Source: Streptococcus troglodytae (GTDB lineage Bacteria; Bacillota; Bacilli; Lactobacillales; Streptococcaceae). From it: DNA of 64,000 nt. How positions within the stretch are numbered: the first letter of the stretch is position 1; every line of letters begins with the position of its first letter. Where the stretch lies: the NCBI RefSeq assembly GCF_002355215.1, contig NZ_AP014612.1, positions 868,001 through 932,000 of the forward strand, in the 5' to 3' direction. Made by a program: the position numbers and the translations under genes. Positions 10,913-62,463 of this stretch are shown here, piece by piece. Below the pieces are notes generated by a model, which saw only the letters and a program-made list of their open reading frames with translations, had not been told where the DNA came from and searched no databases.

Positions 10913-11624
10913 ATGAATTTTCAGCATATTACTATTTTGACACTGTTTATTGAAGGCCTTCTATCATTTTTCTCTCCTTGTGTTTTGTCTATTCTGCCAG
11001 TTTATATTGGCATCTTGGCTGGTCAAGGAGAAGAGAAGCAATCTGGAGAAATGATTTGGGATAGACGAAAAGTCTTTACCAATACATTCTTATTTATTTC
11101 TGGCATAGCAGCGACCTTTTTCATTCTGGCTTTTGCTAGCAGTTTTATTAGTCAATTTTTTCAAAGTCATATTCAATTTCTTCAAAATTTGGGCGGAATC
11201 TTGATTCTTATTATGGGACTAGTACAGGTAGGCCTCATTAAATCTCGCTTTTTTAATAGGGAATATTCAGCTAAGAATAAAGTCTATCAAGCAGGGCAAA
11301 AAGTAACCCCTCTCATTGCTTTTTTAATGGGGTTTACTTTAGTTTTCTTGGACACCTTGTATTGGTCCGATTTTAGCCAGTGTCTTCTTATATGCTAGCA
11401 CCCATCAAGGCATCTACAGTGTTTTACTCATTTTGATTTACTGTTTAGGATTTGTTATTCCCTTTGTTTTGATTGCGCTTTTCTCGCAGAGGGTAATGAT
11501 CATCTTTAAGAAACAAAAACGATTTTTAAAATACACCAAATTATTTTCAGGAATTCTTCTTATTCTCATTGGGATTTCTATCTTAACAGGATCATTTGCT
11601 AAAATAGCACACTTATTTAATTAA
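10913..11624 (+). pseudogene. ccdA: CcdA-type thiol-disulfide interchange membrane protein, frame broken as read
   Basis: A CcdA/DsbD-like membrane protein that passes electrons from cytosolic thioredoxin to extracytoplasmic thioredoxin-like partners. The N-terminal active-site segment FFSPCVLSILPVY holds the first redox Cys near residue 23. A T run at 11343-11346 has one T too many. Reading TTT instead restores SWTPCIGPILASV, with the second redox Cys, and joins the two open frames into a 236-residue protein of normal size. The start at 10913 follows TAGGAGAG. The partner thioredoxin-like gene lies 13 bases downstream. As read, the protein would stop at 11398 and lose the second half. Confidence 0.88.
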
Positions 11625-11637
11625 AAAGGAGATAGTT

Positions 11638-12201
11638 ATGAAAAAGATTATTTTACCATTAGCTCTCGGTGTTACCTTATTAGGAATTGGATTAACAAAT
11701 GAGACAACGTCTTTAGCACAAGGCAAGACATTTCCAAAAATAGTTCAAACGGCTAAAAATCCAGCACCTGTATTCAAATTAAAAAATAAAAAAGGCAAAA
11801 CAGTCAGTCTGTCCGACTATAAGGGGAAAAAAGTTTATATCAATGTTTGGGCAACTTGGTGCGAACCTTGTATGAGAGAAATTCCAGATTTAGAAAAAAT
11901 CTATCAGACTTATAAACATAAAAAAGATTTTGTCTTCTTGTCTGTAACATCGCCAAATGATTCCAAATATAAAAACAGTGATCCGATTGACAAGGATAAG
12001 AACACTATCTTATCTACAGCTAAAGATAAAGGCATTACTTATCCGATTCTCTATGATTATCAGGATAATTTTGTACAGGCATATGGTATTCGTTCTGTTC
12101 CAACCCATATTTTTATCAATAGTGATGGCAACCTGTCAAGAAAAATCGCTGGTGGTCTTGATGAGGACTCTCTTAAATATTACCTGAAAAAATTGAAGTA
12201 A
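11638..12201 (+). CDS. Secreted thioredoxin-like (TlpA/ResA-type) protein
   Basis: A 187-residue exported thiol-disulfide oxidoreductase. Residues 1-28 form a signal peptide without an obvious lipobox. A redoxin domain follows, with active site WATWCEPC near residue 75 and the cis-Pro region SVPTHIFINSDG near 160. It should act outside the membrane and be kept reduced by the CcdA encoded just upstream; such pairs reduce surface methionine sulfoxide reductases or other thiols in streptococci. The strong AAAAAGGAG ribosome binding site and short spacing imply co-transcription with ccdA. Confidence 0.9.
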   Translation: MKKIILPLALGVTLLGIGLTNETTSLAQGKTFPKIVQTAKNPAPVFKLKNKKGKTVSLSDYKGKKVYINVWATWCEPCMREIPDLEKIYQTYKHKKDFVFLSVTSPNDSKYKNSDPIDKDKNTILSTAKDKGITYPILYDYQDNFVQAYGIRSVPTHIFINSDGNLSRKIAGGLDEDSLKYYLKKLK

Positions 12202-12315
12202 CTAAATTCCCCTCTCTTTAGTAGGCGGGATGGGCCTTATTTGACTCTGATGTTTCTTTGTTATCAGGTGAAAATAGACAGCTGCTTGTTGAGTGAGTGA
12301 TAATAACTAAACTTT

Positions 12316-12873: not shown

Positions 12874-12886
12874 ATTTTCTCCTTAA

Positions 12887-12902
12887 ATAGACATTTGTCT
12901 AT
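12887..12902. promoter_or_regulatory. TetR operator 1 (regulator side)
   Basis: ATAGACA-TT-TGTCTAT is a perfect inverted repeat. It sits just downstream of the minus-strand -10 of the regulator (TTGCAA, 17-bp spacer, TTATAT), where bound repressor would block that promoter. Confidence 0.72.
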
Positions 12903-12912
12903 ATAATGATGC

Positions 12913-12941
12913 TTGTTTTTAACTTGCAATCATTATATACT
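12913..12941 (+). promoter_or_regulatory. Promoter of the ABC transporter pair
   Basis: TTGTTT, a 17-bp spacer, then TATACT. It lies about 47 bases before the ATPase start. Confidence 0.65.
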
Positions 12942-21734: not shown

Positions 21735-21846
21735 CAAATATCATTAAATAATTATTTATCTAGTTCTCAATGAAGAAAGTGTATAATTTAGTATTTTATA
21801 CTCAAGCAAATTAATAATAACAGTATAGAAACGAGAGGAAAAATTA

Positions 21847-23705
21847 ATGACTTTTACAACAGAAACTCGAACAATAAGTGATATTTTCCAAAGATCAGTT
21901 GAATACAGTATTCCTAGATATCAAAGAAACTACGTATGGAAGGAAATAAATTGGAAAGAATTACTAGTAGATATCAGATTTACAATGGATAATGGAAGTG
22001 ATATTTCTTGGTCACATTTTTTAGGAACTATAGTTCTTAACAAAATCGATAGTGAGAAAGGGATTGATAGATATGAAATAATTGATGGTCAACAGAGACT
22101 AACTACAATTTATATCTTAATAATAGCAATTTATAATAGATTAAATCTGATTAATGATGAAGTATCCAAAAATAGAGGGAAATATATTTTCGATTCATTT
22201 ATATCAAGTTTGAATAATGAATCAACGAGGATTCCCGTGATAAAAAATGAGGATTTTGATAAGGATATCAAGGAAATAATCGATTCTGCTCGACCCAAAA
22301 ATAATATAAGGATTCCCAAAACAATAACTATTATAAATTATATACCTATTTCGTAAATAGCTTTAAGGAGAAAGATTATTCAGAGATTTCTAGATTTCTA
22401 GATAAATTATTAAGTGCTAATGTCGTTGAAATTATCTCTGGGCAAGAAGAAGAAATTTACAATATATTTGAAGTACTAAATGCAAGAGGACAAAAATTAA
22501 AACAAATTGAATTGTTAAAAAATCATATTATGAAATATATACAGCCAAGAAATGAAGATTTTATTGATAAGGCTAAAGTGCAATGGAAAACTGTAGAAGA
22601 TAATGCTAATAAGTTGAATAATCCAGATATTCTTATCAACCATTTTGCTAAATGCTATATTAGAAAACAAGCTGATAAATCTGATCTAGTTTATCGGCTT
22701 ATAAAAGAAGAAGTTGCGATTAGAGAATTATCTCTATTTTTAAATAAATTATCGGAATATTCAAAAGTATATATAAAGATTTCTGATAAAAATTCCACAG
22801 ATCGTACTATTAAATATTTTAATATTAAAAGGAACCAACAGGTTAGACCACTATTAAGTGCAATATATTTACTTGAAAATAGGAATATTATTAACAGTGA
22901 AATAAGAGAACAGTCAACAATTATGATAAGAAACTATTTTTTTGCATTTAATACATATAGGTTATCAAGTAATAGAATGGAAAAAACAATCAATAAATTA
23001 TCATATGATATTTATCATTCTAAATACGAAGCCGAGTTTAAAATGTATCTTACTGATTTTTTCTGTTCTGCAAAAGATATCTTACCTGATGGAGATATTA
23101 AGAATGCTTTCTTTGAAAATAAGACATTTCGTTTCTCAAACAAGGATGAAACTCTTTCTAAAAATAGGAATATCATAAGATATATTTTAAGCGAACTTTA
23201 TAGTTTAGAACAGTTTGACACGAATATTCCAACTCATTCTATAACAATTGAACATTTATTAGGTGATGATGGATATACAGACAATTCGTTATTGCAAAAT
23301 TTAACTTTAACAACTGCCGAAATAAATTCAGATGATCTTGGAAACAAAGATTTATCAACAAAATTGGAAATACTGGCAGATAAGTCAACTATTCGTTCTA
23401 ATCAGAAATTAAAAGATTATCTTAACGAAAATGGGGATTTTGATTTTGAATCAAGAAAAAATGATATTTTAAATCAACTTTTTCAAAGGGTGTTTGTATT
23501 CAATCCATATTTATTCCATATAAATGAATATGATACTAAGGAATTTTTTGAAATCTACAAACTTTTAGAGGAAAAAGATCAGCAAGAGTTACTTGATTTG
23601 CTTAGGAAGAATGGTAAGAATTTTGAAAATGTGCTACAGAATGATCCTGATTTAAAAGATGAGCTAGCTATTTATGAAGAACTAAGAGAAAATAAGAAAA
23701 TTTAA
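21847..23705 (+). pseudogene. DUF262/DUF1524 GmrSD-like restriction protein, frame broken as read
   Basis: One T missing near 22331 splits the gene. Restoring it gives a 619-residue protein. The N-terminal DUF262 (GmrS) domain shows IPRYQRNYVW near residue 23, GTIVL and DGQQRLTT near 80, and after the repair FEVLNARGQKL. The C-terminal DUF1524 (GmrD, HNH-like nuclease) region shows ITIEHLL near 465 and LQNLTLTT...IN. GmrSD enzymes are nucleotide-dependent type IV restriction systems that attack modified phage DNA. All key motifs are present, so a working enzyme is likely if the indel is an artefact. It lies between an Abi-like gene and an unknown gene. Confidence 0.82.
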
Positions 23706-23804
23706 AGGGAATATTATCATATTTAACGATTAAATATCTCGAAATAGTTAAGATTTGATAGATCAAATTATTTTCAAAAGAGTAATAAAGCAAGGAAGAA
23801 CAAT

Positions 23805-24606: not shown

Positions 24607-24707
24607 AATTATTAGTCTGATTAGTTATAATAACATCTAAGCATCGCTTTGTTCTTCTACCAAATAACATGGGTCTATTGTAATGTGTTTCTTTATAGGT
24701 AATCGGT

Positions 24708-27937: not shown

Positions 27938-28171
27938 ATGAATAATACAATAGATTTATCAAAACCAGTTGCACAAACGATCAAAGAACATCCCGAAGTC
28001 AAGGATATTCTGGTGGAACTGGGCTTTAAACCTTTGGCAAATCCTGCCATGCTCAATACAGTCGGTAAAGTAACAACCTTGTTGGCTGGCTCAAAAATGA
28101 CACGAATTCCTTTGGAAAAAATTAAACAAACTTTGGAATTTAATGGCTATGAAGTGATTGGAGACGAATGA
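27938..28171 (+). CDS. DUF1858 domain protein
   Basis: A 77-residue protein, essentially one DUF1858 domain (IDLSKPVAQTIKEHPEVKDILVELGF, residues 4-29). In other proteins this domain is found next to hybrid-cluster or hemerythrin-type redox proteins. Its TGA stop overlaps the ATG of the DUF438-hemerythrin gene (ATGA), so the two are translationally coupled. A role in nitric oxide or oxygen stress is inferred from the partner. Confidence 0.85.
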   Translation: MNNTIDLSKPVAQTIKEHPEVKDILVELGFKPLANPAMLNTVGKVTTLLAGSKMTRIPLEKIKQTLEFNGYEVIGDE

Positions 28172-29534
28172 TGGCAGATGAAAGAATTGAAGTCTTAAAA
28201 GACATTTTATTGGATCTTCATCACGGTGCTAGTGAAGAGTCTGTTCAAGAGCGTTTTAATCAGCATTTCAAGGGCGTTTCCGCTATTGAGATTTCCATGA
28301 TGGAACATGAGCTCATGAATGCTGATACGGGCATTACCTTTGAAGATGTTATGGGACTTTGCAATGTTCATGCCAAACTTTTTAAAGGTGCTATTGCCGA
28401 TGTTGATGTGCCAGATGCTGAGCAAGAAGGGCATCCTGTCAAGGTTTTCAAGGATGAGAATTTAGCTTTACGCGCAGCTATCATGCGTATCCGTCGTATT
28501 ATTGAAAATTATGCCAAACCCGAAAACGAGGACTTTCATCAGGAAATTCTGAAGGGGCTTAAGCATCAATTTGATTTACTGGGACAATTTCATCATCATT
28601 ATACCCGCAAGGAAAAACTCTTTTTCCCAATCATGGAGCGCTATGGGCACGATTCACCACCTAAGGTTATGTGGGGTGTTGATGATGATATTCGTGATCT
28701 TTTTAAAGATGCCAAAGCGGCTTTAGCTAAATTGCCTGATGGCTCTATTGAAGAACTTTCTCAAAAACTTGAAGCCTTTGCCAAGGAATTTGAAGAGATG
28801 ATTTTCAAGGAAGAAGCTATTCTCCTCATGATTCTCTTGGAATCTTTCACTCAGGACGATTGGCTGCAGATTGCTAGCGAGAGTGACGCTTACGGTTATG
28901 CCATTCTCAAGCCGACTGAAAAATGGATTCCTCACCGTGAGTCTTTTGAACAATCAGCTGGCGCAGACACTTCTGACAATCAACTGGCTGACGCTCTAAA
29001 TCAAGTGCAAGATGACAATTCACCTGAGGGGACCAATACAAAAATCATCAACACACCAGAAGGTCAATTTACTATCACTTTTAAACCGAAAGAAAAGAAG
29101 AAGCGGTAGACCGTAGGACTCAACAGCCCTTTGGCAATGGTTATCTATCTGTTGATCAGGCTAATCTCATTCTCAATCATCTGCCCCTAGAAATTACCTT
29201 TGTCAATAAAGATGATATTTTCCAATATTATAATGACAGTGTCCCTGCAGCAGAAATGGTTTTTAAACGCACACCAAGCCAAGTTGGCCGCAATGTGGAG
29301 CTCTGCCATCCGCCAAAAGTCTTGGATAAGGTTAAGAAGGTTTTTGAACTCCTGCGCAGCGGTCAGCGCGATAAAGTGGAAATGTGGTTTCAATCTGAAC
29401 GCCTAGGTAAATTTGTCTATGTGACCTATGCGGCTGTTCGTGACCAAGCAGGTGATTTTCAAGGTGTCCTTGAGTACGTGCAAGACATCAAACCATTCTT
29501 TGAACTAGATAGTGATTTCAATCGAGATATATAG
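28168..29534 (+). pseudogene. DUF438-hemerythrin (HHE)-PAS protein, frame broken as read
   Basis: As read the protein ends at residue 313. One G missing at 29105-29106 explains this: restored, the frame continues to 29534 for 455 residues. Domains: DUF438 (about residues 1-75); hemerythrin/HHE iron site with H-rich helices (HQFDLLGQFHHHYTRKEKLFFPI, about 130-155, and later E/H helices); and a C-terminal PAS-like domain (from about 335, EITFVNKDDIFQYYN). Such proteins are thought to sense or buffer NO or O2 through a di-iron site. It is coupled to the DUF1858 gene by ATGA overlap. Confidence 0.85.
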
Positions 29535-32894: not shown

Positions 32895-34204
32895 ATGACA
32901 ACCTTTAAGTATTTTTCCAAGGTGTTATTAACCTATTTTGCAACCGTGGTTTTTCTGGGGCTGACTGCTATCTTTATCTTTTTATTTGGCAGCTACCACA
33001 TCATTGACAATATGAGGCAAGGTCAAGAAAAACCTACTGCCCTAGTGCAGACTATTGTCAGTCATGGCCAGTTGCAGTTAAGCACTAAAATAAAAAAACT
33101 TTAGATAAGCAAAAGATTTGGCTCATGCTCCTATCTGAGCAGGGAGAGATAAAGAAGTCTTATCGCTTACCAGATAAACTCAATCGCCATTATACTATGG
33201 CAGATATTGCTCGCTCATCACGCTGGTATCTGAATGACTATCCTGTCTTTACCTTTGTGGTTGGCAAAGATATCCTTATCCTTGGCTACCCTAAAAGCGC
33301 TTATGATAAATTCCCAGCCAACTATTACAATGTGCAGAATTTCTTTGACATTGCCAAGCTAGCTCTAGGTATTTTCTTAGGAACCCTCATGATTTTGCTC
33401 CTTATCTACCTTCGTTCCCAGTGGCGCTTTCGCAGGGAATTTAAGCCCATTACTCAGGCCTTATCAGATCTGTCTGATAACCAGCCAGTCGTTCTTGATG
33501 AAAAGGGTAACCTGTCTGAAATTAAGGCAGCTCTTAACCAGACTTCCCAGCTCCTTATTGAGAACAAAGAGCTGCGTAGCCATTGGGTCCGCGGCATCAG
33601 CCATGATTTGCGCAATCCCCTGACCCTTATCCTAGGCTACACCAGTCAGCTAGAGAGTCTCAATGGCAGCAGCCAGCAGACCCGACAGATTGAGGCCAAT
33701 ATCCATAAGATGGAGCACATTATTTCCAATCTTAACATGAGTTATCTCCTAGAAAACCAAGATATTGAGCAGGAGATGACCATCTTTGACCTCAATAGCC
33801 TTCTCAGACAAATCATTGCCGACCTTTACAACACTTACGAAGACCTAGACTTGACTTTTGACCTGCCAGAAGAGGCAACCGTGATTTCTGGCAACAAGAC
33901 CTTGATGACTCGTGCGGTTAATAATCTGCTCCTCAACAGTCTTACGCATAATAATGAGCCTCAGCTAAGTCTGTCCCTGACTCATAACAATCAGCAAGCC
34001 CTGCTGACCATCTCGGATAGAGGTGCTATCACTGATGAGAAAATCCTTGAACTCAACCAGAAATCTCGCAACTATGACACCCATGGCATGGGCACTGTTA
34101 TCACTAAGCAAATCATAACACTTCATCAAGGTGAGACTGTCTTTTCGGACAATCATCCAGGCTTGAAGGTAACCATTACTTTGCCTTTAAAAGATGACTT
34201 TTAG
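32895..34204 (+). pseudogene. lcrS: Sensor histidine kinase LcrS, frame broken as read
   Basis: A run of seven A at 33092-33098 should be eight; with that base restored the two open frames join into a 436-residue kinase. Features: TM1 at about residues 12-36, a short extracytoplasmic loop of about 110 residues, TM2, then HisKA with the H-box HDLRNPLT, an N-box NNLLLNSLTHN and a C-terminal glycine patch HGMGTVI. It senses lantibiotics in the known system and phosphorylates LcrR. As read, the sensor would end after about 69 residues. Confidence 0.88.
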
Positions 34205-34323: not shown

Positions 34324-34373
34324 GAAATTTATGACTTCTAACATCAGTGATTAAAAAACGAAGGATCCCTATT

Positions 34374-35209
34374 ATGGTATATGGTGCGAAAAATAAAATC
34401 TTGTATTTTAATGGTAAAAGTATGGATTATGCCATGTTTGGTTATGGTGAAGAATCTTTACTGATTATTCCTGGGCTAGGTGATGGTATCGCTACGGTCA
34501 AAGGGATGGCTCAAACTTTGTCACTTTCTTATCGAACACTTGCTAGACGATATAAAGTCTATGTCTTCAGTCGAATCTATGAATTGCCGGAAAAGTATAG
34601 TACTAAAGAAATGGCTGCTGACATTGCTGAAGCGATGGAAGTCTTGAATATCAGTCAGGTTAATGTGTTAGGAGTTTCACAAGGCGGTATGATTGCTCAG
34701 TATCTTGCTTTGGATTTTCCGGATAAGATTCAAAAATTAATTTTAGCAGTGACAACAGGCTCTATGAATGCCTTAAGTAAAAAAGAATTGAACATTGGCT
34801 AGACTTAAGTCAGAATGGCTCCTATCAGGAACTAATGCTAGATATTGCTTATCATTCTTACACAGCTGAGAGCTTTGCCTACCTCAAATATGTTTACAAG
34901 ATTCTGGGAGTTTTTGGTAAAATTAAACATAAAAGACGAATAGTTACTCAGTCTCAATCTTGTTTACGTCACAATACTTTAGCCAGACTGCAAGAGCTTC
35001 ATTGTCAAACTCTGATTATCGGTGCAGAAGAAGATGATGTACTTAGCGTGGCATCTTCTAAAGAATTGGCAGCAGTTATTAAAGACAGCCGTATAGAAAT
35101 TTTAAAGCATTGCGGACATGCTCTCTTTGAAAAAAATAAAGATTTTCAAAAACTTGTTTTAGAGTTCTTAGAGAATAAAAATATGCTATACAAAAAGGGA
35201 AGACAATGA
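34374..35209 (+). pseudogene. Alpha/beta hydrolase, frame broken as read
   Basis: One A missing in AA at 34791-34792 breaks the frame; restored it gives 278 residues. Alpha/beta hydrolase features: oxyanion loop IIPGLGDG, the nucleophile elbow GVSQGG (Ser near residue 106), and late in the second half a Asp-containing IGAEEDDVLSV strand and HCGHALFEKN with the catalytic His (near 255). The substrate is unknown. The stop is only two bases before the truB start, implying co-transcription. An upstream in-frame GTG at 34347 is possible, but the ATG fits homologues better. Confidence 0.82.
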
Positions 35210-35210
35210 A

Positions 35211-36088
35211 ATGAACGGAATTATCAATTTAAAAAAAGAAGCAGGGATGACCTCCCATGATGCGGTTTTTAAGCTTCGTAAAATATTAAAAGAAAAAAGA
35301 TTGGACACGGGGGAACCTTGGATCCTGATGTTGTCGGGGTCCTGCCAATTGCAGTTGGCAAAGCCACACGGGTTCTGGAATACATGACAGAAGCTGGTAA
35401 GGTTTATGAAGGCCAAATAACACTCGGTTTTTCGACAACGACTGAAGATGCCAGTGGTGATCTTATACATCGAACACCAGTTGATGAGACTTTGTCTATG
35501 GATCTTATTGATCAGGCGATGACATGTTTTATAGGCCAAATAACACAGGTTCCGCCCATGTATTCGGCTGTTAAAGTTAATGGAAAAGAATTATACGAAT
35601 ATGCGCGTGCAGGTCAGGAAGTAGAACGTCCTCAGCGCCAAGTCAGGATTTATGATTTTAAGCGAACTAGTGAGCTGGTTTTTGAAGATGAATGTTGTCG
35701 CTTTGATTTTAGGGTTTCTTGCAGCAAGGGAACTTATATCAGAACCTTGGCGGTTGATTTGGGTCAAAAACTTGGCTATGCCAGTCATATGTCTTTTCTC
35801 AAACGAACAGCGTCAGCTGGTTTAGATTTCAGTCAAGCTTTGACATTAGCTGAAATCGCTGAGAAAGTTGAAAAGAAGGATTTTTCCTTTATTTTACCAA
35901 TGGAATATGGTGTTCTCGATTTACCAAGAATAGACTTAAATCAAAAACAAACCAAAGAAGTTTCTTTTGGAAGACGCCTTACACTGCACCATCAGGAAAA
36001 ATTGTTAGCAGCTTTTTTTGAAGATCAACTGATTGCAGTTTTAGAAAAAAGAGATACCTCTTACAAACCTAAAAAGGTTTTTCTTTGA
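35211..36088 (+). pseudogene. truB: tRNA pseudouridine-55 synthase TruB, frame broken as read
   Basis: TruB makes pseudouridine 55 in the T-loop of tRNAs. The start [24 protein letters not shown] is canonical. One A missing near 35300 breaks the frame just before the catalytic motif. Restored, it reads [24 protein letters not shown] with the catalytic Asp, giving a 292-residue protein of normal length. [13 protein letters not shown] and a PUA-like C-terminal end are present. Losing the first 35 residues would remove the catalytic loop, so a read error is more likely than real loss. ribF follows, a common pairing. Confidence 0.9.
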
Positions 36089-36118: not shown

Positions 36119-37051
36119 ATGGAAATAATAAAAATAGATAGTTATAATGATATTGAGCAGCAAGAAGATTCGGTCTTGGTTTTGGGCTATTTTGATGGGC
36201 TTCATAGAGGGCATAAGGAACTTTTTAATCAAGCCAGAGAAATAGCCCAAAAAATGCAACTGAAAATAGTTGTCTTGACCTTCCCAGAGTCTCCTCAGTT
36301 AGCTTTCGCACGTTTTGAGCCCGATTTACTTAATCATATTAATTACCCAGAAAAACGCTATCGTAAGTTTGCAGAGTACGGAGTTGACTGTCTTTATTTG
36401 ACAGACTTTACTTCTTCCTTTGCAAAGATTAGTTCTGATGATTTTATCAAAAACTATATTCAAGCTCTGAAAGCTAAGGCTGTTGTTATGGGGTTTGACT
36501 ATAAATTCAGTCATAATAAAACGAATTCTGATTATCTTAAGCGTCATTTCACGGGGCAAGTTATTACTGTTCCTGAAGTACAGTATGACGGGAAGAAGAT
36601 TAGTTCAACGCGCGTGCGCCAGCTCATTAATCAAGGTGATATGACTCAAGTTAATCGTCTTTTAGGTTATGAGTTTTCAACACGAGGACTAGTGGTACAC
36701 GGTGATGCTAGGGGACGTACAATTGGTTTTCCAACTGCTAATCTTGCACCGCTGGATCGGACTTATTTACCAGCCGATGGTGTTTATGTGGCTGATGTTA
36801 TTGTCGGCAGGAAGCGTTATCGTTCCATGACCAGCATTGGTAAAAATATCACCTTTGGAGGAACAGAATTGCGTCTTGAAGCTAATATATTTGACTTTGA
36901 CGATGATATTTACGGCGAGACAATTGAAATCTTCTGGTTAAATAAAATTCGCGATATGATTAAATTCAATGGCGTTAATGATTTGGTTGAACAATTAAAA
37001 TCTGATAAAGAAATTGCGATAAATTGGGAAAATCATAGCCAAGTGCTTTAA
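36119..37051 (+). CDS. ribF: Bifunctional riboflavin kinase / FAD synthetase RibF
   Basis: A 310-residue enzyme that converts riboflavin to FMN and FMN to FAD. The N-terminal nucleotidyltransferase domain has GYFDGLHRGHKELF (near residue 22) and ISSTRVRQLI (near 160). The C-terminal flavokinase domain has GDARGRTIGFPTANL (near 197). The length is standard. The ribosome binding site is weak (GAAAG, spaced far), which may lower expression. It lies 30 bases after truB. Confidence 0.94.
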   Translation: MEIIKIDSYNDIEQQEDSVLVLGYFDGLHRGHKELFNQAREIAQKMQLKIVVLTFPESPQLAFARFEPDLLNHINYPEKRYRKFAEYGVDCLYLTDFTSSFAKISSDDFIKNYIQALKAKAVVMGFDYKFSHNKTNSDYLKRHFTGQVITVPEVQYDGKKISSTRVRQLINQGDMTQVNRLLGYEFSTRGLVVHGDARGRTIGFPTANLAPLDRTYLPADGVYVADVIVGRKRYRSMTSIGKNITFGGTELRLEANIFDFDDDIYGETIEIFWLNKIRDMIKFNGVNDLVEQLKSDKEIAINWENHSQVL

Positions 37052-37098: not shown

Positions 37099-37512
37099 AT
37101 GGTTACCTTATTTTTATCACCTAGCTGTACGAGCTGCCGTAAAGCTAGAGCTTGGCTGAATAGGCATGATGTTGTTTTTCAGGAGCACAATATTATGACT
37201 AGTCCTTTGAGCCGTGATGAACTATTAAAAATTTTATCTTATACAGAAAACGGGACAGAAGATATTATTTCGACACGTTCCAAGGTTTTTCAGAAATTAG
37301 ACATTGATGTAGATGAATTATCCGTCTCGGAATTAATCAACCTTATTTCCAAGAATCCGGGTTTGCTTCGCCGTCCTATTATCATGGATGATAAACGTAT
37401 GCAAATTGGTTTTAATGAAGATGAGATTCGTGCTTTTTTACCACGAGACTATCGCAAACAAGAACTGCGTCAGGCGACAATCAGAGCGGAAGTTGAGGGA
37501 GAAGATGACTAA
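37099..37512 (+). CDS. spxA1: Transcriptional regulator SpxA1
   Basis: A 137-residue Spx/ArsC-family protein that binds the RNA polymerase alpha C-terminal domain and activates oxidative-stress genes. The redox switch CTSC is at residues 10-13, and the RPI motif lies at LLRRPIIMD near 92. Of the two streptococcal Spx paralogues, this context (ribF side, followed by UPF0223 and an inositol phosphatase) fits SpxA1. Its last 8 bases overlap the start of the next gene. Confidence 0.9.
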
Positions 37513-37782
37513 GAATTACGCTTACCCTTTGGATTTGTCGTGGAGCACTGAAGAGATGACCTCAGTGCTTTCTTTTTTAAATCTGGTAGAAAAGGCTTAT
37601 GAAAGCAAAGTTGAAGCTGTTCTTTTATTAAAAGTTATCAGAATTACAAAACGATTGTTAGCAGCAAGTCGCAAGAAAAGCAAATCGATCGTAATTTTGA
37701 AAAGGTTAGTGGTTATTCTACCTATCGAGCTGTTCAAGCCGCAAAAGCTAAAGAGAAAGGATTCATCTCTCTTGGAAACTAA
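37505..37782 (+). pseudogene. UPF0223 family protein, frame broken as read
   Basis: Small UPF0223 (DUF1447) protein: [18 protein letters not shown] is the canonical start. One A missing in AAAA at 37630-37633 shifts the frame; restored it runs [20 protein letters not shown]... to a TAA at 37780-37782 for 92 residues, the usual size. The break makes a false fusion with the downstream phosphatase. It overlaps spxA1 by 8 bases. The function of the family is unknown. Confidence 0.82.
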
Positions 37783-38530
37783 ATTTCAATTTGCTAAAGA
37801 ACTTATTTATGAAGCAGGGAGTTATATTCGTGATAATATGACAAAAGACCTTGCCATTGAAGAAAAGTCGACTTTTGATGATCTGGTAACCAACTTAGAT
37901 AAAGCTGTTCAATCCTTGATGGTTGAACGAATCCGTAAGGTTTATTCTCAAGACCATATCTTTGCAGAAGAGAATGGCCTTGTAGCTGATATCAATGATG
38001 GTGCCGTTTGGGTTTTGGATCCTATTGATGGAACCATTAATTTTATTGTGCAGGGTTGTGACTTTGCTGTTATGATTGCATATTATGAGAAGGGAATAGG
38101 ACAATTTGGACTTATTTATGATGTTATGAATGACCTTCTTTACAGTGGCGGCGGTCAATTTGAGGTTAAGGTTAATGATAAGGCTTTAAAACCATTTCAA
38201 GACAGACCTTTCAATCGCTCTTTGATTGGTGCTAATAATGGTATGTGTGCCCAAAATGTTATGGGGATTGCCAATCTCGGTCGTCAAACCTTAGGCGTTC
38301 GCGGCATTGGCAGTGCAGGCCTCAGTATTTGCCGTGTCTTAGAAGGACGTTTTATAGCATATTTTTCTAATGTTTCACCTTGGGATTATGCTGCTGGTAG
38401 TATTATGGGAGAAAAATTAGGTTATGTCACTCTTGATTTGCAGGGTCAAAAGCCTGATTACAAAACAAGACAAAAAATCATGTTTGTTCCTAAAATAAAG
38501 TTGAAAGAAATTCAAAAGTATATCAAATAA
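37772..38530 (+). CDS. suhB: Inositol monophosphatase family protein (SuhB-like)
   Basis: A 252-residue member of the inositol monophosphatase family, Mg-dependent. Metal-site motifs: EENG (near residue 66), [12 protein letters not shown] (near 82) and SPWDYAAG (near 205). The start is proposed as TTG at 37772, overlapping the UPF0223 stop and preceded by AAAGGA. The apparent 380-residue reading that begins inside spxA1 is an artefact of the upstream frameshift. The substrate could be inositol phosphate or PAP; the symbol is by family only. Confidence 0.82.
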
Positions 38531-39971: not shown

Positions 39972-39994
39972 TGATAAAGAAAGGAAAGCGGGTA

Positions 39995-40856
39995 ATGAAA
40001 AAGAAAAAGTAACTTTATTCGCAATGCTAGCCTTAGCTAGTCTTGTCTTAGCGGCATGTTCCAATTGGATTGATAAAGGGCAGTCAATTACCAGTGTTGG
40101 TTCTACGGCTTTGCAGCCCTTAGTTGAAGCTTCTTCGGATGAATTTGGACATGCTAACATTGGCAAAACAGTTAATGTTCAAGGTGGAGGTTCTGGTACA
40201 GGACTCTCCCAAGTTCAATCAGGTGCTATTCAAATTGGGAATAGCGATCTTTTTGCTGAAGAAAAAGATGGTATTGATGCCAGTAAGTTAGTCGACCATC
40301 AAGTTGCTGTTGCAGGCATTGCCGTCATTACTAACAAAAAAGTTAAAGCATCAAATTTGACCCTTGATCAATTAAGAAAAATTTTCACGGGAGAATATAC
40401 AAACTGGAAACAGCTTGGCGGACAAGATTTGGAAATTTCGATTATCAATCGTGCTGCTAGTTCGGGTTCACGTGCTACCTTTGACAGTGTCGTCATGAAA
40501 GGAAAAAGTGCCAGACAAAGTCAAGAACAAGATTCAAATGGAATGGTGAAGTCAATTGTTTCACAGACACCGGGCGCTATTTCTTACCTCGCTTTTGCTT
40601 ACGTTGATAAGTCCGTGAAAACTTTAAAATTAAATGGTTATGAACCAACCGTTAAGAATGTCACAACTAATAATTGGCCACTCTGGTCTTATGAACATAT
40701 GTATACTAAAGGAGAAGCCAAAGGTTTAACCAAAGAATTTTTAAAATTCATGATGAGTGACAAGATTCAAAAGGTGTTGTGACCAGAATGGGTTATATTT
40801 CTGTTAATGATATGAAAGTTGTTAAGCGTGCAGATGGTACTGTAACTGCTAAATAA
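39995..40856 (+). pseudogene. pstS: Phosphate ABC transporter binding lipoprotein PstS, frame broken twice as read
   Basis: A high-affinity phosphate-binding lipoprotein. The ATG at 39995 follows AAAGGAAAG. Two single-base losses disrupt it: an A within 39998-40008, which would stop translation after five codons, and a G at 40773-40774 near the end. Both restored, the protein has 287 residues with lipobox LAAC near residue 22, GSTALQPL and GSGTGLSQV phosphate-site loops and [10 protein letters not shown]. It begins the pstSCABB-phoU cluster. Confidence 0.9.
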
Positions 40857-40928: not shown

Positions 40929-41864
40929 ATGAAAAATCAAGAACTTGCTAAAAAGCTGACATCGCCTTCCAAAAATTCTCGTTTGGAAAAATTCGGAAAG
41001 TTGATTACGCTTTTCTGCTTAATCTTAATTGTTATTATTGTAGCAATGATTCTTATTTTTGTTGCCCAAAAGGGATTGTCAACCTTTTTTGTGAATAAAA
41101 TCAATCCTCTTAAATTCTTGTTTGGGACAGAGTGGCAGCCAAATGTTAAGGGAGCTGATGGTAAACCATTACTTGGGGCTTTGCCGATGATTTTAGGTTC
41201 TTTTATTGTAACTATTTTATCTGCTGTTATTGCGACTCCTTTTGCTATTGGAGCAGCAGTCTTTATGACTGAAATTTCACCTAAGTACGGTGCCAAAATT
41301 TTACAACCTGTCGTTGAGCTTTTGGTGGGGATTCCTTCAGTTGTTTATGGATTTATTGGCTTGCAAATGGTGGTTCCTTTTGTGAGATCTATTTTTGGTG
41401 GGACTGGTTTTGGGATTTTATCAGGGGTTTTTGTCCTCTTTGTTATGATTTTACCGACAGTAACCTTTATGACAGTTGATAGTTTAAAAGCTGTTCCCAG
41501 ACATTATAAGGAAGCCAGTCTTGCTATGGGAGCTACTCGCTGGCAAACGATTTGGCGTGTGATTTTAAATGCTGCTAAATCTGGGATTTTTACGGCTGTT
41601 GTTTTTGGAATGGCACGGGCATTTGGCGAAGCCTTAGCCATCCAAATGGTTGTGGGCAACTCAGCTGTTATTCCAACTTCCTTGACAACACCTGCGTCAA
41701 CTCTGACTTCAGTTTTAACAATGGGAATCGGTAATACCGTTATGGGAACCGTTCAAAATAATGTCCTTTGGTCTTTAGCTTTAGTTCTTCTTGTTATGAG
41801 CTTGGGCTTTAATTTGTTGATGAGATTTATTACAAGGGAAGGTAAGAAAAATTATGAGCGCTAA
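40929..41864 (+). CDS. pstC: Phosphate ABC transporter permease PstC
   Basis: A 311-residue permease with six TM helices, one of two membrane subunits of the phosphate importer. It shows the long N-terminal cytoplasmic segment typical of PstC and the EAA-type loop EASLAMGATRWQTIWRVILNAAKSGI (about residues 197-222). The start at 40929 follows GGAGGA; longer frame extensions lack a ribosome binding site. Its end overlaps the pstA start by 11 bases. Confidence 0.92.
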   Translation: MKNQELAKKLTSPSKNSRLEKFGKLITLFCLILIVIIVAMILIFVAQKGLSTFFVNKINPLKFLFGTEWQPNVKGADGKPLLGALPMILGSFIVTILSAVIATPFAIGAAVFMTEISPKYGAKILQPVVELLVGIPSVVYGFIGLQMVVPFVRSIFGGTGFGILSGVFVLFVMILPTVTFMTVDSLKAVPRHYKEASLAMGATRWQTIWRVILNAAKSGIFTAVVFGMARAFGEALAIQMVVGNSAVIPTSLTTPASTLTSVLTMGIGNTVMGTVQNNVLWSLALVLLVMSLGFNLLMRFITREGKKNYER

Positions 41865-42739
41865 GAAACTTGATAAATTAGCTACAGGTATTCTTTATAC
41901 AATTGCAGGTATTATTGTTGCCATCTTGGCTTCGCTTTTACTCTTTATTCTTGTACGGGGGTTGCCTAAGGTCAGTTGGCACTTTTTGACCGGCCGTTCT
42001 TCTTCTTATGAAGCTGGTGGTGGTATTGGTATTCAGCTTTATAATTCTTTCTTTCTTTTGGTCGTGACATTAATTATTTCCATACCCTTGTCTATGGGAG
42101 CAGGGATTTATTTATCGGAATATGCTAAAAAAGGGCGTTTGACAGATTTTATACGTACTTGTATTGAAATTTTGTCTTCTCTCCCATCAGTTGTTGTTGG
42201 ACTTTTTGGTTATTTAATTTTGTTGTTCAATTTCAATATGGCTTTTCCATTATTTCAGGTGCTTTGGCTTTAACTGTTTTAATTTACCGCAAATGACACG
42301 CAATATTGAAGATAGTTTGCGCAATGTGCATCATACTCAACGCGAGGCTGGTCTTGCTTTAGGCATTTCTCGGTGGGAAACTGTTTTACATGTTGTCATT
42401 CCCGAAGCACTTCCGGGGATTGTGACGGGGATTGTCTTGGCTTCTGGTCGGATTTTTGGTGAAGCAGCGGCACTTATCTATACAGCAGGTCAATCGGCAC
42501 CTGCTCTTGATTGGGGTAATTGGAATCCACTTAGTGTTACCAGCCCGATTTCCATCTTTCGTCAATCTGAAACTCTTGCCGTTCATATTTGGAAAGTTAA
42601 TAGTGAAGGCACTATTCCGGATGCGACCAAAGTATCAGAAGGAAGCGCAGCAGTTTTACTTATTTTTATTTTGATTTTCAATCTGTCTGCTCGTTATATT
42701 GGTAAAAAATTACATGCTAAGTTGACATCAGCAGCTTAA
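41854..42739 (+). pseudogene. pstA: Phosphate ABC transporter permease PstA, frame broken twice as read
   Basis: The second permease of the phosphate importer. Two T residues are missing 34 bases apart, in the runs at 42243-42246 and 42277-42280. Restoring both joins the two open frames through SIISGALALTVFNLPQMTRNIEDSL into 295 residues. The EAA loop (REAGLALGISRWETVLHVVIPEALPGI) lies just after the break. As read, the protein ends before the EAA loop, so phosphate import by this system would fail. Two such losses so close together suggest local sequence error. Confidence 0.9.
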
Positions 42740-48321: not shown

Positions 48322-48996
48322 ATGATAAAGTTATTATTAGTAGAAGACGATTTGAGTCTATCTAACTCTATCTTTGACTTTCTGGATGATTTTGCTGATG
48401 TCATGCAGGTTTTTGATGGTGAAGAAGGACTGTATGAAGCAGAGAGCGGCGTTTATGATTTAATCCTATTAGACTTGATGCTTCCTGAAAAAAATGGTTT
48501 TCAAGTTTTAAAAGAACTGCGTGAAAAAGGGATAACAACGCCTGTTTTGATTATGACAGCTAAAGAAGGTTTGGATGACAAAGGGCATGGTTTTGAATTA
48601 GGAGCTGATGATTATCTGACAAAACCATTCTATCTTGAAGAATTAAAAATGCGTATTCAAGCCCTTCTCAAACGTTCAGGCAAGTTCAACGAAAATAATC
48701 TGACTTACGGTGAATTAACCGTTGATACAGCAACTAATACAACAATGGTAAACGGAAAAGAAGTTGAGATGCTCGGCAAAGAGTTTGACTTATTAGTTTA
48801 TTTCTTGCAAAATCAAAACGTCATTTTACCTAAGTCACAAATTTTTGATCGTATCTGGGGCTTTGATAGTGATACGACAATTTCGGTTGTTGAAGTCTAT
48901 GTTTCTAAAATCAGAAAAAAATTAAAAGACACCACATTTGGAAAAAATTTACAGACATTACGCAGTGTAGGATATATTTTGAAGGATGCTAATTAA
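48322..48996 (+). CDS. ciaR: Response regulator CiaR
   Basis: A 224-residue OmpR-family regulator. Receiver acidic pair EDD near residue 8-10, phosphoacceptor Asp in [13 protein letters not shown] (near 51), Lys in YLTKPF (near 101), and a winged-helix output ending GYILKDAN. It controls stress tolerance, competence and biofilm genes. The 11-base overlap with ciaH implies translational coupling; the direct repeat upstream of ciaX fits autoregulation. Confidence 0.94.
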
Positions 48997-50292
48997 ATTA
49001 AGAAAACAAAAGCAGGATGAGAATATTTCATTTTTTAGCCATTTCTTTGCTGTTTTTACCGGGATATTCTTTGTTATGACAGTTATTATTATTCAGGTGA
49101 TGCATTTTGGTATTTATTCTTCAGTTGATAATAGTCTAAAAATAGCAACTGAGAATGTCAATGATTATGTCAATATGACTCTGTCGCGTAATAATCCTAT
49201 TGCTGAAGCTGAAAATGGAGATGCCTCTTTTAAAGTAAAATCAAATGGCCAGATGGCTGCTAATACAGATACGATTCTTTATGATAAAAAGCATAACGTC
49301 ATCAATAATGTCAATGCCTTCTCTTCTTTGTATCATATTCGCCCTAAACTGAAAGATATTGGTGATATTATTGAACAAGAAGCTAAGAATATTTACGGTC
49401 AGACCGAAAAGTATCGGACAGTAACAGTTAAAGTAAATAATGATTTTTACCCACAGATAAAATTTGCAACGATTGTTATTAATACAACACAGCTTGAAGA
49501 GGCTAATACGCGTTATGTTACGATTATTATCAGTGTGATGATTGTTTTTTGGCTTATATCAGTTGTTGCCAGTGTTTATTTAGCGAAGTGGAGTCAAAAA
49601 CCGATTCTGGAAAATTATGAAAAGCAAAAATCATTTGTTGAAAATGCCAGTCATGAGTTACGTACTCCTTTGGCTGTTTTGCAAAATCGCTTGGAGAGTT
49701 TGTTTCGAAAACCAGAGGCTACTATCTTAGAGTCATCGGAATCTATCGCTTCTAGTTTGGAAGAGGTCAGAAACATGAGAATGCTGACAGCAAATCTCCT
49801 TAATTTAGCCCGTCGAGATGATGGTATCAAACCAGAAATAACAGAAATCCAACCTCGTTTTTTTGATGATACTTTTAAAAATTATGAGATGATCGCTCGA
49901 GAAAACGGGAAGAAATTGCATATTGCTAATAAGGTTAACCGTCAAATTAAGACAGATAAGACGTTGCTGAAGCAATTAATGACCATTCTTTTTGATAATG
50001 CTGTCAAATATACAGATAACGACGGGGAGATTTGGCTGGACGTCAAGACAACTGATCGCAGTTTAATTTTTCAGTTGCGGACAATGGTCAAGGTATTTCA
50101 GACGAGGATAAGAAGAAAATTTTTGATCGTTTTTATCGGGTTGATAGAGCCAGAACACGACAAAAGGGTGGCTTCGGACTTGGTTTGTCTTTGGCAAAAC
50201 AAATAACAGACAGCTTAAAAGGCAGTATAATTGTTAAAGATAGAAAACCACAAGGAGTAATGTTTGAAGCTCGCCTACTGGCTAATAAATAA
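48986..50292 (+). pseudogene. ciaH: Sensor histidine kinase CiaH, frame broken as read
   Basis: A T run at 50067-50071 is one short; restored, the kinase has 435 residues. TM1 about residues 18-42, extracytoplasmic sensor about 43-170, TM2 about 172-195, HisKA H-box ASHELRTPLA (near 225), N-box DNAVKYT. After the repair come ADNGQGI (G1) and GGFGLGLSLAKQI (G2). As read, the ATP-binding half loses its glycine boxes, so the kinase would be inactive. In view of the many similar breaks, an artefact is likelier than a real loss. Confidence 0.9.
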
Positions 50293-50355: not shown

Positions 50356-50380
50356 AAAAACCTCAAAATCGAGGTTTTTT
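50356..50380. terminator. Bidirectional terminator between ciaH and rpsT
   Basis: AAAAAACCTC / GAGGTTTTTT with a 6-base loop; T runs on both strands serve the convergent genes. Confidence 0.92.
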
Positions 50381-50614
50381 ATTTGGCTAATTTGCTTGCA
50401 AGACGTGCTTTATCGCGGCTTGCCTTATTTTTGTGAATCAAACCTTTTGATTTAGCTTTGTCAATACTTGAAGAAGCAGCACGGAAAAGCTCTTCATTAG
50501 GGTTTGCTTCAAAAGCTTTAATAGCTGAGCGCATAGCTGATTTTTGAGCTGAATTGCGGTTATTTGTTTAACGTTAAGTTCAGCACGTTTAATAGCTGAT
50601 TTAATATTTGCCAA
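50379..50614 (-). pseudogene. rpsT: Ribosomal protein S20, frame broken as read
   Basis: 30S ribosomal protein S20. One A (T on the plus strand, at 50563-50565) is missing. Restored, the frame reads [20 protein letters not shown] ... [16 protein letters not shown] and ends at 50379. The start is proposed as TTG at 50614 (M-ANIKSAIKRAELN), giving the usual 78 residues; an ATG at 50632 would put the GGAGG ribosome binding site inside the gene. S20 is important for growth, so the frameshift is very probably a read error. Confidence 0.88.
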
Positions 50615-50649
50615 TGTCTTTATTACCTCCATATTATAATAACTATACC

Positions 50650-52384: not shown

Positions 52385-52403
52385 TAGCGTTCTTGGTATC
52401 TGT

Positions 52404-53680
52404 ATGAGAGCAGTTGATTTAATTCAGAAAAAACGTGATGGGTTGGCATTGGCACAGGAAGAAATTTCTTGGCTCATTGAAGGATATGTTAATGGCCAAG
52501 TTCCTGATTATCAAATATCAGCACTTGCTATGGCTATCTATTTTAAAGGAATGAGCGCTAGAGAGACGCAAGATTTGACCATGGCTATGGTTAAGTCTGG
52601 TCAGCAAATTGATTTATCAGCTATTACTGGAATAAAGGTTGATAAGCATTCCACAGGTGGTGTTGGTGATAAGGTTACCCTAATTTTAGTGCCATTGGTA
52701 GCCAGTTTTGGAGTGCCGGTTGCTAAAATGAGTGGTCGCGGATTGGGACATACTGGCGGGACTCTTGATAAATTGGAATCAATTAAGGGTTATCAAGTTG
52801 AGCGTTCACAAGCAGATTTTATTAAGCAGGTAAAAGATATTGGTTTGGCTGTTATTGGTCAATCTAATGATTTGGTCAAAGCCGATAAGTTATTATATGC
52901 CTTGCGTGACGTCACGGCAACAGTTGATACGATACCTTTGATTGCTAGTTCAATTATGAGCAAGAAAATTGCCGCAGGGGCGGATCGTATTTTACTGGAT
53001 GTGACAGTAGGTGATGGTGCTTTTATGAAAACTTTAAAAGAAGCTGAAGACTTATCTCAAACCATGGTTAACCTAGGTAAAGAAGTGGATCGTCAGACCA
53101 TTGCTGTCATTACAGATATGAGTCAGCCTTTGGGGCAAGCTATTGGCAATCGTTTAGAAGTTTTAGAAGCCTTGCAAATTATGCAGGGGAAAGGCCGTCA
53201 GGATATTATTGATTTTATTTGTCAGCTGGCTCAATTACTTTTAGAATTGGCAGGACAAAAGAGAAGTCTGACTGAAATCAAGGAACATTTGACCAATGGG
53301 CAGGCTCTTCAAAAATTTGAAGATATGATTGTTTATCAAGGTGGTGACTTAAATGATCTCCATCGTCCTTCAGCTGCAAAATTTGTGACCAAGATTCTTG
53401 CTGATAAAAACGGCTATATCAAGGAATTACCTGCTCTAACTTTTGGCCTTTTTGCTATGCGTTTGGGGGCTGGACGAGCAGTCAAAACGGATCAACTTGA
53501 CTATGAGACAGGAATCGTTTTTTATAGAAAAGTTGGCGATCGAATCCAAAAGGGTGATTTGCTAGCAGAGATTTATTCCAATGAAAAATTATCGGAAAAC
53601 TTACTTACAGAATTCAAAAAAATGTTAAAATAGATAAGGATGAAATGAAAGTAACTGAAATTTTAAAAATCATTACTTGA
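52404..53680 (+). pseudogene. pdp: Pyrimidine-nucleoside phosphorylase, last segment out of frame as read
   Basis: Splits uridine, thymidine and deoxyuridine into base and (deoxy)ribose 1-phosphate. Motifs: VDKHSTGGVGDKVTL (near residue 79), SGRGLGHTGGTLDKLE (near 112), and MSKKIAAGAD. As read it has 409 residues. An A run at 53616-53622 is one short; restored, the end continues NVKIDKDEMKVTEILKII to 53680 for 425 residues, the family norm. As read only about 16 terminal residues would be lost, so activity might survive. deoC follows 18 bases later. Confidence 0.9.
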
Positions 53681-54826: not shown

Positions 54827-55874
54827 ATGAACAAGAAAATTATTGGTTTAGGGTTAACTGCAGTAGCAGTATTGGGACTTGCTGCTTGTGGAAACCGTGC
54901 AGCTAGGGAAAAAGGTAAGGCAAAGACAGACTTAAAAGTCGCTATTGTCACTGATACTGGCGGTGTTGATGACAAATCATTTAATCAATCAGCTTGGGAA
55001 GGTTTACAGGCTTGGGGCAAAGATAACGGTCTTAGCAAAGGAAATGGTTTTGATTACTTCCAATCAGCTAGTGAATCTGATTATGCTACTAATCTTGATA
55101 CAGCTTCATCAAGCGGTTATAAATTAATATTTGGTATTGGCTATGCTTTGCATGATGCTATCGAAAAAACAGCAGCAGATAATAAGAATATCCATTACGT
55201 TATTATTGATGATGTTATCCAAGAGAAAAACAATGTCGCTAGTGTTACCTTTGCTGATAATGAAGCTGCTTACCTTGCAGGAATCGCTGCAGCAAAAACA
55301 ACTAAATCAAAGAAGGTCGGCTTTGTAGGCGGTGTGAAATCTGAAGTGATTACTCGTTTTGAAAAAGGTTTTGAAGCTGGTGTGAAATCAGTTGATAGTT
55401 CTATTCAAATTCAAGTTGATTACGCTGGTTCGTTTGGAGATGCAGCCAAAGGTAAGACAATCGCTGCTGCACAATATGCTAGCGGTGCAGATGTTATTTA
55501 CCAAGCTGCTGGCGGTACTGGTGCAGGGGTATTTAGTGAAGCCAAAGCTGTTAATGAAAAGAAAAAGAAACAAAAAAGTTTGGGTCATTGGAGTTGACCG
55601 AGATCAAGCTGCTGAAGGTAAATATACTTCTAAGGATGGTAAGAAGTCTAACTTTGTTCTTGCTTCTTCCTTAAAAGAAGTTGGTAAGGCTGTTCAGTTG
55701 ATTTCAACAAACACTTCTAAGAAAAAATTCCCGGGCGGTAAAGTGACAACTTATGGTCTTAAAGATAAAGGGGTTGATTTAGTACCAACACATTTGTCTA
55801 AAGAGGGTAAAAAGGCTGTTGATGATGCTAAGAAGAAAATTGTATCTGGTGATGTTAAAGTTCCAGAGAAATAA
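54827..55874 (+). pseudogene. rnsB: Ribonucleoside-binding lipoprotein RnsB (BMP family), frame broken as read
   Basis: Lipoprotein of the basic membrane protein (TmpC/BmpA) family that binds nucleosides for import. Signal peptide with lipobox LAAC (Cys near residue 21), DTGGVDDKSFNQSAWEG (near 43), and YQAAGGTGAGVF (near 225). The A run at 55572-55577 appears to hold one A too many (or two too few); corrected, the frame continues VWVIGVDRDQAAEGKYTS to 55874 for about 348 residues. It heads the rnsBACD genes; the name follows the published S. mutans transporter as I remember it. Confidence 0.88.
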
Positions 55875-59746: not shown

Positions 59747-59788
59747 AATGAAGTAACAATTAGATTATATTGAAAAGAGGATTTGCTT

Positions 59789-61162
59789 ATGAGTAAAATC
59801 GTTGTTGTTGGAGCTAATCATGCAGGTACAGCTGCCATTAATACTATTCTAGATAATTACGGTAATGAAAACGAAGTTGTCGTTTTCGACCAAAATTCTA
59901 ATATTTCATTCTTGGGTTGTGGAATGGCACTTTGGATTGGGAAACAAATATCAGGTCCTCAAGGTCTTTTTTATGCCGATAAGGAATCGTTAGAAGCAAA
60001 AGGTGCTAAAATTTATATGGAATCGCCAGTGACAGCCATTGACTATGATACTAAGACGGTTACTGCCTTAGTTAATGGTCAAGAACATGTTGAAAGCTAT
60101 GAGAAGCTTATTTTGGCAACAGGATCAACACCAATCTTACCGCCTATCAAAGGTGCAGCTATCAAAGAAGGTAGTCGTGATTTTGAAGCAACTTTGAAAA
60201 ACCTTCAATTTGTTAAATTGTATCAAAATGCAGAAGATGTTATTAATAAATTGCAGGATAAGAGTCAAAATCTGAATCGTATTGCTGTTGTTGGTGCTGG
60301 TTATATTGGTGTAGAACTTGCTGAAGCCTTTAAACGACTTGGAAAAGAAGTGATTCTTATTGATGTTGTTGATACTTGCTTAGCTGGTTATTATGATCAG
60401 GATCTTTCAGAAATGATGCGCCAAAATTTGGAAGATCATGGTATTGAATTAGCCTTCGGAGAAACTGTCAAAGCCATTGAAGGTGATGGTAAAGTCGAAC
60501 GTATTGTAACTGATGAAGCGAGCCGTGATGTGGATATGGTTATTTTAGCTGTCGGTTTCCATCCCAATACTGCGCTTGGCAATGCTAAACTCAAAACCTT
60601 TCGTAATGGTGCCTTCCTTGTTGATAAACATCAGAAAACAAGCGTTCCTGATGTTTATGCTATCGGCGATTGCGCGACTGTTTATGACAATGCCATTAAA
60701 GATACCAATTATATTGCTTTGGCTTCAAATGCTCTTCGCTCAGGTATTGTAGCTGGTCATAATGCAGCAGGTCATGAATTAGAATCTCTTGGTGTCCAAG
60801 GTTCAAATGGTATTTCAATTTTTGGTCTCAATATGGTTTCAACTGGGTTAACTCAAGAAAAAGCAAAGCGTTTTGGCTATAATCCAGAAGTCACTACATT
60901 TACAGATTTACAGAAGGCTAGTTTTATTGAACATGATAATTACCCTGTTACACTTAAAATTGTCTATGATAAAGACAGCCGACTGGTTCTTGGTGCGCAA
61001 ATGGCGTCTAAAGAAGATATGTCAATGGGGATTCATATGTTTTCATTGGCTATTCAGGAAAAAGTTACCATTGAACGTTTAGCTCTGCTGGATTATTTCT
61101 TTCTTCCTCATTTCAATCAACCCTATAATTATATAACTAAAGCAGCATTAAAAGCTAAATGA
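59789..61162 (+). CDS. nox: Water-forming NADH oxidase (Nox-2)
   Basis: A 457-residue FAD-dependent NADH oxidase of the CoA-disulfide-reductase-like family. It reduces O2 to water and regenerates NAD+, supporting aerobic survival and acetate formation. N-terminal FAD site [10 protein letters not shown], redox-active Cys44 in FLGCGMALW, central NADH loop [15 protein letters not shown] (near residue 165), and second FAD motif [13 protein letters not shown] (near 285). The ATG at 59789 follows AAAAGAGG. It is monocistronic, with no clear terminator visible. Confidence 0.95.
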
Positions 61163-61328
61163 TCATGAATGAAACAGTGAAAAGTAATTTTTTGTCAGTT
61201 TAATCGTTTTTCAAGAAAACTCTTGAATTATCTTTATCTATCAAACTCTCATACTTTTATCATTAGGTGTATTGCTGTCTGAAAGTGATTATTATATAAT
61301 AAAAGTGAAAAGGAGGCGATAGAAAGAT

Positions 61329-62463
61329 ATGTCGAATCAAGATTTCACTAGGAAAAATACAAAACCGACGGCACATGATAAGCAAAAGAGATTGGCTGAA
61401 GAAGAATTAGGGAAAAGAATTTCTCGTCTTCAGTTAGCTTTGAAAAAAGAAAAGATCCTAAATTGAGACAAGAAATTTCTCTTTTGCTGCAACAGTACGA
61501 AACAGAGTATAAAAATTTATTGCAGAAAAAACGTTTTCGCACTTATTTAATAGCGTCAGTATGTATTATAGGAGTAATCATAGTTGTTCTCTTTCTTATG
61601 TTTTTAAAAGACAGCTCTCGACCTATCTCTAATATTTCAACTTCTAAGAGAACCACAGCAACTTCATCTCTCCAAAAGAAAGATAAAACTAACAAGACAA
61701 AGTCTGATCGTAGTCAAGGCCAGAAAACTGCAGCTGTTTTCCCAGTAAAGTTAAGAGGAACGTGGTATGGTTATGTTGATAATCTTCAAAAAGATATTCA
61801 AATGACTTTTTCTAAAAATGGTGTGATAAAAACGGTTATCGGTTCAGAAAATTACACAAGTAGAATTAAAAATATAGAGAGAGTGGGCGTTAATACTTAC
61901 TGTTATCATTTTGTTAAGGGGACGCAGCCAAATGGTTTGGTGGCAGGAGCACAACTAGGGGGAGTTTATGTTAGATATGCTTATGGTGTTTATATTGGAG
62001 ATGGCTATATAAAACCCTTAGTTTGGCAAGCAGGTGTTGACAGCGATTTTGATTATTCTCAACCTTTAACTAATATTGGGTTGGATTACCAATTGCAAAA
62101 GGGAAGTCCTTCATCACAGAAGTCTCCTCATAGAAAGAGTAGTGACAGTCAAGTAGATACAAGAAATCTTACTACCCAACAGGTTGAGGATTGGGTTATT
62201 GCAAATTATCTGGAAAATCGTAAGGATAATCGTTTTACTAAAAAGATTTCACTATTGAAAGTTGGAAAGCTAATACAGATGGTTTAGTTTATGCTACTAT
62301 TAAGGAAAATCATCAGTCTGATGCGATGAGACAAGCAGGGGCAGAGCCTAATACCAACCCAACAGTTGCCCATTATCGTATTAATGCTAATGGAGAGTTG
62401 GAAAAGTCATCAGATGGTCTCAACAATTGGGCTGTTGTTAGTAAGACTTACTATAGTGACTAA
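61329..62463 (+). pseudogene. Unknown single-TM extracytoplasmic protein, frame broken twice as read
   Basis: I do not recognise the family. The true start is ATG 61329 (after AGGAGG). A runs at 61450-61453 and 62240-62244 are each one A short; both restored give 378 residues. Layout: charged cytoplasmic N-terminus with a helical stretch (residues 20-70), one TM helix (about 78-97), a Ser/Thr/Lys linker, then an extracytoplasmic domain beginning KLRGTWYGYVDNLQKDI. A second C-terminal domain contains LTTQQVEDWVIANYL and ends TYYSD, like the DUF4767-type repeats of streptococcal lipoproteins. Location next to ldh is not informative. Confidence 0.72.

Follow-up and report, generated by a model that had tools for sequence, protein, structure and literature searches.

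Genes split by small insertions or deletions (indels) can be met either as errors of long-read or other homopolymer-limited assemblies or as frameshift pseudogenes fixed in a lineage. In the former case, passages of the Kastor paper (PMC12007338) link the deletions among its errors to runs between two and eight bases long. Here we describe genes with broken reading frames in a window (the whole stretch of DNA under analysis, 64,000 nucleotides, bases 868001-932000) of the chromosome of Streptococcus troglodytae, rpsT, truB and genes similar to pstS and pstA being among them, together with a sample taken from the whole chromosome. Comparison with related sequences makes it very probable that these frameshifts are homopolymer-length errors of the assembled consensus, an artefact and not real gene loss. 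We favor error because the events are strongly biased towards losses, depend on run length, are spread genome-wide and hit central single-copy genes, while constraint remains normal.

The source sequence (labelled G000, likely strain TKU31, for which a complete genome has been published) is a single-contig chromosome of 2,097,874 bases with a completeness score of 99.99%. It is a member of the mutans group: an 877-amino-acid (aa) protein of the window shares 83%, 80% and 75% identity with its counterparts in S. ratti, S. orisasini and S. sobrinus, respectively. The nearest among 283 other Streptococcus genomes searched, G164 (one contig, 2,018,796 bases), shows 97% identity with the source in one long gene and 91.4-95.5% across the aligned parts of the window. 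Eleven of the named genes (ccdA, the DUF438 gene, truB, UPF0223, pstS, pstA, ciaH, rpsT, pdp, rnsB and the gene starting at 61329) were aligned with G164 as DNA. The reference for the DUF262 gene was a database protein of 619 aa that carries the label Streptococcus mutans, for lcrS the 6 other genomes of 278 matching at an E-value of 1e-120 or better, and for a hydrolase the 58 other genomes of 278 matching at 1e-30 or better. The names lcrS, ciaH, UPF0223 and rnsB are labels taken from a first-pass annotation of the window; the domains alone are backed by Pfam where matched, the matches in the gene pieces being DsbD_TM, DUF438, histidine kinase domains, alpha/beta hydrolase, TruB, substrate-binding, permease, pyrimidine phosphorylase and Bmp. 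For every result, the cause of the breaks is inferred from comparison with relatives.

The first-pass annotation had counted fifteen broken genes in the window, carrying about 15 losses and 3 gains of single bases. Fourteen of them are truly frame-broken, with relatives that are open. The remaining one, a zinc-ribbon gene, was not located: the sole open reading frame (ORF) of at least 25 aa in the window that fits a two-CxxC pattern lies at 38-430 and is equally long in G164. The gains did not hold up in any of the 14 genes, every frame change being a loss. All the gaps across the 11 genes aligned by DNA are losses in the source, including those that break rpsT and truB as had been claimed, and the two pieces of each of the DUF262, lcrS and hydrolase genes stand 1 base closer to each other than the matching parts in relatives. 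The description of single-base events throughout has to be amended for rnsB, which lost two bases, and for pstS and pdp, whose aligned spans carry extra losses beyond the single ones (those of pdp at its 5' edge). An additional loss, at the 3' end of a flavokinase/FAD synthetase gene, had not been listed.

To place the window in its genome, 13 blocks of the chromosome were sampled, the window and its flanks included, a sample and not the whole genome. The count took in every G164 ORF with 100 aa or more whose whole length falls inside an alignment, which omits shorter genes (rpsT, UPF0223) and those with no full G164 alignment (truB, lcrS, the hydrolase and the DUF262 gene). Two early schemes for assigning events were judged too loose and a corrected, stricter count was used, the looser scheme being kept for the run-length and block rates. 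Sixty-five of 364 G164 ORFs are frameshifted in the source (~18%, about one in six), and the events found in them comprise 75 losses and 7 gains of a single base, a bias far greater than chance would give, and 11 events of other sizes. The window (9 of 47) is no worse than the other blocks (56 of 317), the frequency of broken genes not differing between blocks (p=0.42), and damage limited to the window was rejected on this ground. In the reverse direction, 22 of 371 source ORFs carry frameshifts in G164 that are due to other events (13 single gains, 6 single losses and 11 other), from which natural gene breakage probably exists as well. Premature stops with no counted frameshift are balanced between the genomes (15/364 vs 13/371). 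By extrapolation from the 75 losses per 358 kilobases of tested genes, about 400 such places would be expected on the chromosome, and errors are probably present at a few hundred places in its 2.10 megabases.

The loss rate per G164 run rises with run length, from 18 of 183,521 at length 1 (0.01%) to 13 of 2,094 at length 5 (0.6%), 25 of 679 at length 6 (3.7%), 13 of 213 at length 7 (6.1%) and 4 of 26 at length 8 (15%), with 1 loss in the 5 runs of length 9. Runs were counted both ways, which avoids the bias of picking long runs in one genome. In coding runs of at least 6 bases, 63 of 966 are one base shorter in the source vs 2 of 917 in G164, while no gain is found in the source (0/966). Noncoding runs of the same length show 52 of 275 one base shorter in the source and 17 of 251 in G164. 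For runs of 1-3 bases, losses are about as frequent as gains, both in coding (35 vs 33) and in noncoding DNA (110 vs 101). Ordinary indels, with losses and gains roughly in balance and strongly depleted in genes, thus form a background on which a one-way excess of losses in long runs is superimposed.

Some of the genes hit are ones that a cell could hardly do without. The rpsT gene, for ribosomal protein S20, is found once in the source, with an internal stop, while a match without stops covers 82 of 83 positions in 116 of the 117 other Streptococcus genomes searched, one draft having no match. For dTMP kinase (tmk) and tryptophan--tRNA ligase (trpS), G164 has one open locus each and the source has two adjacent pieces. 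Whole-genome family searches of the source found no second copy of rpsT, tmk or trpS. The sample also contains broken genes for DNA polymerase III delta' and phosphopantothenate--cysteine ligase; these two, the dTMP kinase and the tryptophan--tRNA ligase were named by NCBIfam on the G164 proteins. Growth in Firmicutes requires tmk, trpS, holB and coaB, and S20 is at least very important to the cell. Since tmk, trpS and rpsT are all broken and no other copy was found, a living cell could hardly have lost all three. Among genes with more than 90% identity, the share of substitutions falling on third codon positions is 71.1% in the 52 broken only by single losses and 72.2% in the 271 intact ones (p=0.31). 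Relaxed selection in the genes broken by single losses was therefore rejected, their codon-position constraint being unchanged.

The ribosomal RNA (rRNA) operons offer a comparison within each genome. Over alignment columns 474-5269 the five operons of G164 are identical to each other, and in the same columns the five operons of the source show 3 copy-specific losses, 1 gain and 5 substitutions, which fits a modest error rate. One source operon (L081, G000:C1:386150-391850) has copy-specific differences, and its 16S scores 1586.3 bits vs 1590 in the other four. A scan for transfer RNAs in the ten rRNA-operon stretches gave nothing useful.

Several observations weigh against an explanation by error alone. 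The loss rates counted by event are uneven between blocks (p=1.6e-5, from 0 to 14 losses per block). Under the looser assignment of events, 82 losses and 19 gains fall to the source and 20 and 9 to G164, a sign ratio that does not differ significantly (Fisher p=0.20); we think, although this is not proved, that fragments of broken source genes make G164 look broken under that scheme. With another definition of coding DNA, the runs of 1-3 bases show 49 losses and 33 gains in coding sequence (96 and 87 in noncoding). At each of the lengths 5, 6 and 7, long runs show a greater excess of losses in noncoding DNA than in genes, which a pure error process blind to genes would not predict; natural contraction may account for some of the noncoding surplus, or a number of genes may have received corrections by hand. 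When all 63 broken genes with more than 90% identity are taken together, changes outside the third codon position are slightly more frequent than in intact genes (odds ratio 1.14, p=0.007), and from this a few of the broken genes are probably true pseudogenes. The differences among the rRNA copies include substitutions and could be natural. If the breaks were in general real pseudogenes, this lineage or the cultured strain would have lost the genes through slips in homopolymer runs. The unevenness between blocks, the raised non-third-position changes and the 22 genes of the reverse test, frameshifted in G164 by events that are not those of the source, would all be in line with such a history, as would some genes with several indels or indels of other sizes (one with six events, one with four). 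It is a very unlikely account of the whole, however, considering that single-copy genes of central function are struck (dispensability having been judged for rpsT, trpS, tmk and a minority of the other broken genes), that constraint is unchanged in the genes broken by single losses, and that the excess goes one way, towards losses, and lies in the longer runs.

The dependence on run length is slippage-like, and it would also be expected of a mutator strain deficient in mismatch repair, with genuine and recent homopolymer slips. A mutS defect was rejected, as the gene is open at its full 850 aa, the same as in G164 (the argument concerning mutS alone). Moreover, selection would still purge hits in trpS and tmk, and the complete lack of gains in the long coding runs does not suit a mutator, which leaves this explanation with hardly any probability. 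Unchanged constraint and hits in central genes would be predicted if the frameshifts were real and were rescued in expression by slippage of the transcribing polymerase or of the ribosome, for which poly(A) tracts of insect endosymbionts are a described case. The runs that remain are, however, short. Five bases are left after 40 of the 120 coding losses, 4 after 16 and 3 or fewer after 41, while 6 or 7 are left after 22, 8 after a single one and more after none; these remaining lengths are below those known to slip efficiently. The loss excess is also present in noncoding DNA. We regard slippage rescue as extremely improbable, and it is scarcely credible that a free-living streptococcus would carry hundreds of true one-base contractions, those of trpS, tmk and rpsT included, and make its proteins by slipping on short runs. 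The attribution to homopolymer error in the underlying data, already put forward in the first-pass annotation, is thus supported by the genome-wide loss bias, the run-length dependence and the hits in central genes. In such an error the length of a run would be miscounted, mostly in runs of at least five bases, leaving the consensus one base too short; undercounting by the base caller or at the consensus step would be the most likely mechanism, and the actual genes of the organism would be intact.

Within the window, the broken genes all lie on the + strand, with the exception of rpsT. The ccdA-like gene with a DsbD_TM domain (10918..11624) has its frame broken where G164 has one ORF. The DUF262 gene (21847..23705) lies in two frames and has a known intact homologue of 619 aa, to which its pieces align at residues 1-159 (97%) and 223-619 (94%). 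The stretch that holds this gene (21733-24733), inside a low-G+C part of the window, does not align to the G164 stretches compared. Just after it, at 24744-24909, two short ORFs of G164 overlap in different frames, and the source has no ORF of at least 40 aa on that strand; this gene may have decayed in both genomes. The DUF438/hemerythrin/PAS gene (28168..29534) is also split into two frames, and its G164 counterpart is open, with 455 aa.

The histidine kinase gene labelled lcrS (32895..34204) is in two frames, the 6 close orthologues all being open at 433-437 aa vs 371 aa here. The lcrS-type kinase (32205-34204) is 76-77% identical to the orthologues in S. ratti, G215 and G185 (one of the latter two may be S. 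ratti) and 52% identical to that of G164, while the adjoining response regulator is 90% identical to G164. These identities suggest a replacement of the kinase allele in one lineage. The alpha/beta hydrolase gene (34347..35209) follows, also in two frames, and 57 of 58 relatives are open at 248-292 aa (one with an internal stop counted) vs 155 aa here. A tblastn search of the G164 stretches compared gave no match for the hydrolase, and the nearest in the genus search is that of G140, with 73% identity. In truB (35217..36088) the break is close to the 5' end and the G164 ORF is open, with 302 aa. The flavokinase/FAD synthetase gene (36119..37051) has its loss at the 3' end only, the products having 310 vs 306 aa. 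The gene labelled UPF0223 (~37502..37790) is fused into the next gene by its frame break, the two ORFs being separate in G164.

The pstS-like gene with a PBP_like_2 domain (39973..40856) is broken near both ends, and the pstA-like permease gene with a BPD_transp_1 domain (41854..42739) is in two pieces; both are open in G164, with 295 aa each. In the histidine kinase gene labelled ciaH (48986..50292) it is the C-terminal part that is out of frame, G164 being open at 435 aa. The rpsT gene (50379..50632, - strand) has its frame broken and is the sole match in the genome. The pyrimidine nucleoside phosphorylase gene, pdp (52401..53680), has its last ~5 percent out of frame. The gene for a nucleoside-binding lipoprotein with a Bmp domain, labelled rnsB (54827..55874), is the one with the two-base loss, and G164 is open at 349 aa. 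Lastly, the 61329 gene (61329..62463) is broken twice, its G164 counterpart having 378 aa; the longest piece gave no Pfam match.

The completeness score of 99.99% gave no hint that about 18% of the sampled genes are frameshifted, and the finding is useful for curation. Numbers of pseudogenes, of two-component systems or of lost genes derived from this assembly are likely inflated. The caution already advised about any absence of phosphate uptake, CiaH or LcrS is upheld: claims that Pst, CiaH, LcrS or other genes are absent should not rest on this assembly and need a check against reads. Two papers (PMC9241761, PMC9638458) use the S. troglodytae genome in comparisons, if it is the same genome, and their passages on it show no conclusion resting on a broken gene.

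Our literature search found no paper pairing troglodytae with PacBio. As in the passages on long-read assembly errors (PMC12007338), we find indels in runs that split genes in a small genome of finished appearance; unlike there, the evidence here comes only from comparison with relatives. The likeness to frameshift pseudogenes fixed in a lineage is that a small indel splits a gene into two frames. Unlike in those pseudogenes, in S. troglodytae the hits reach central single-copy genes, constraint is unchanged in the genes broken by single losses, and the events are mostly losses in long runs.

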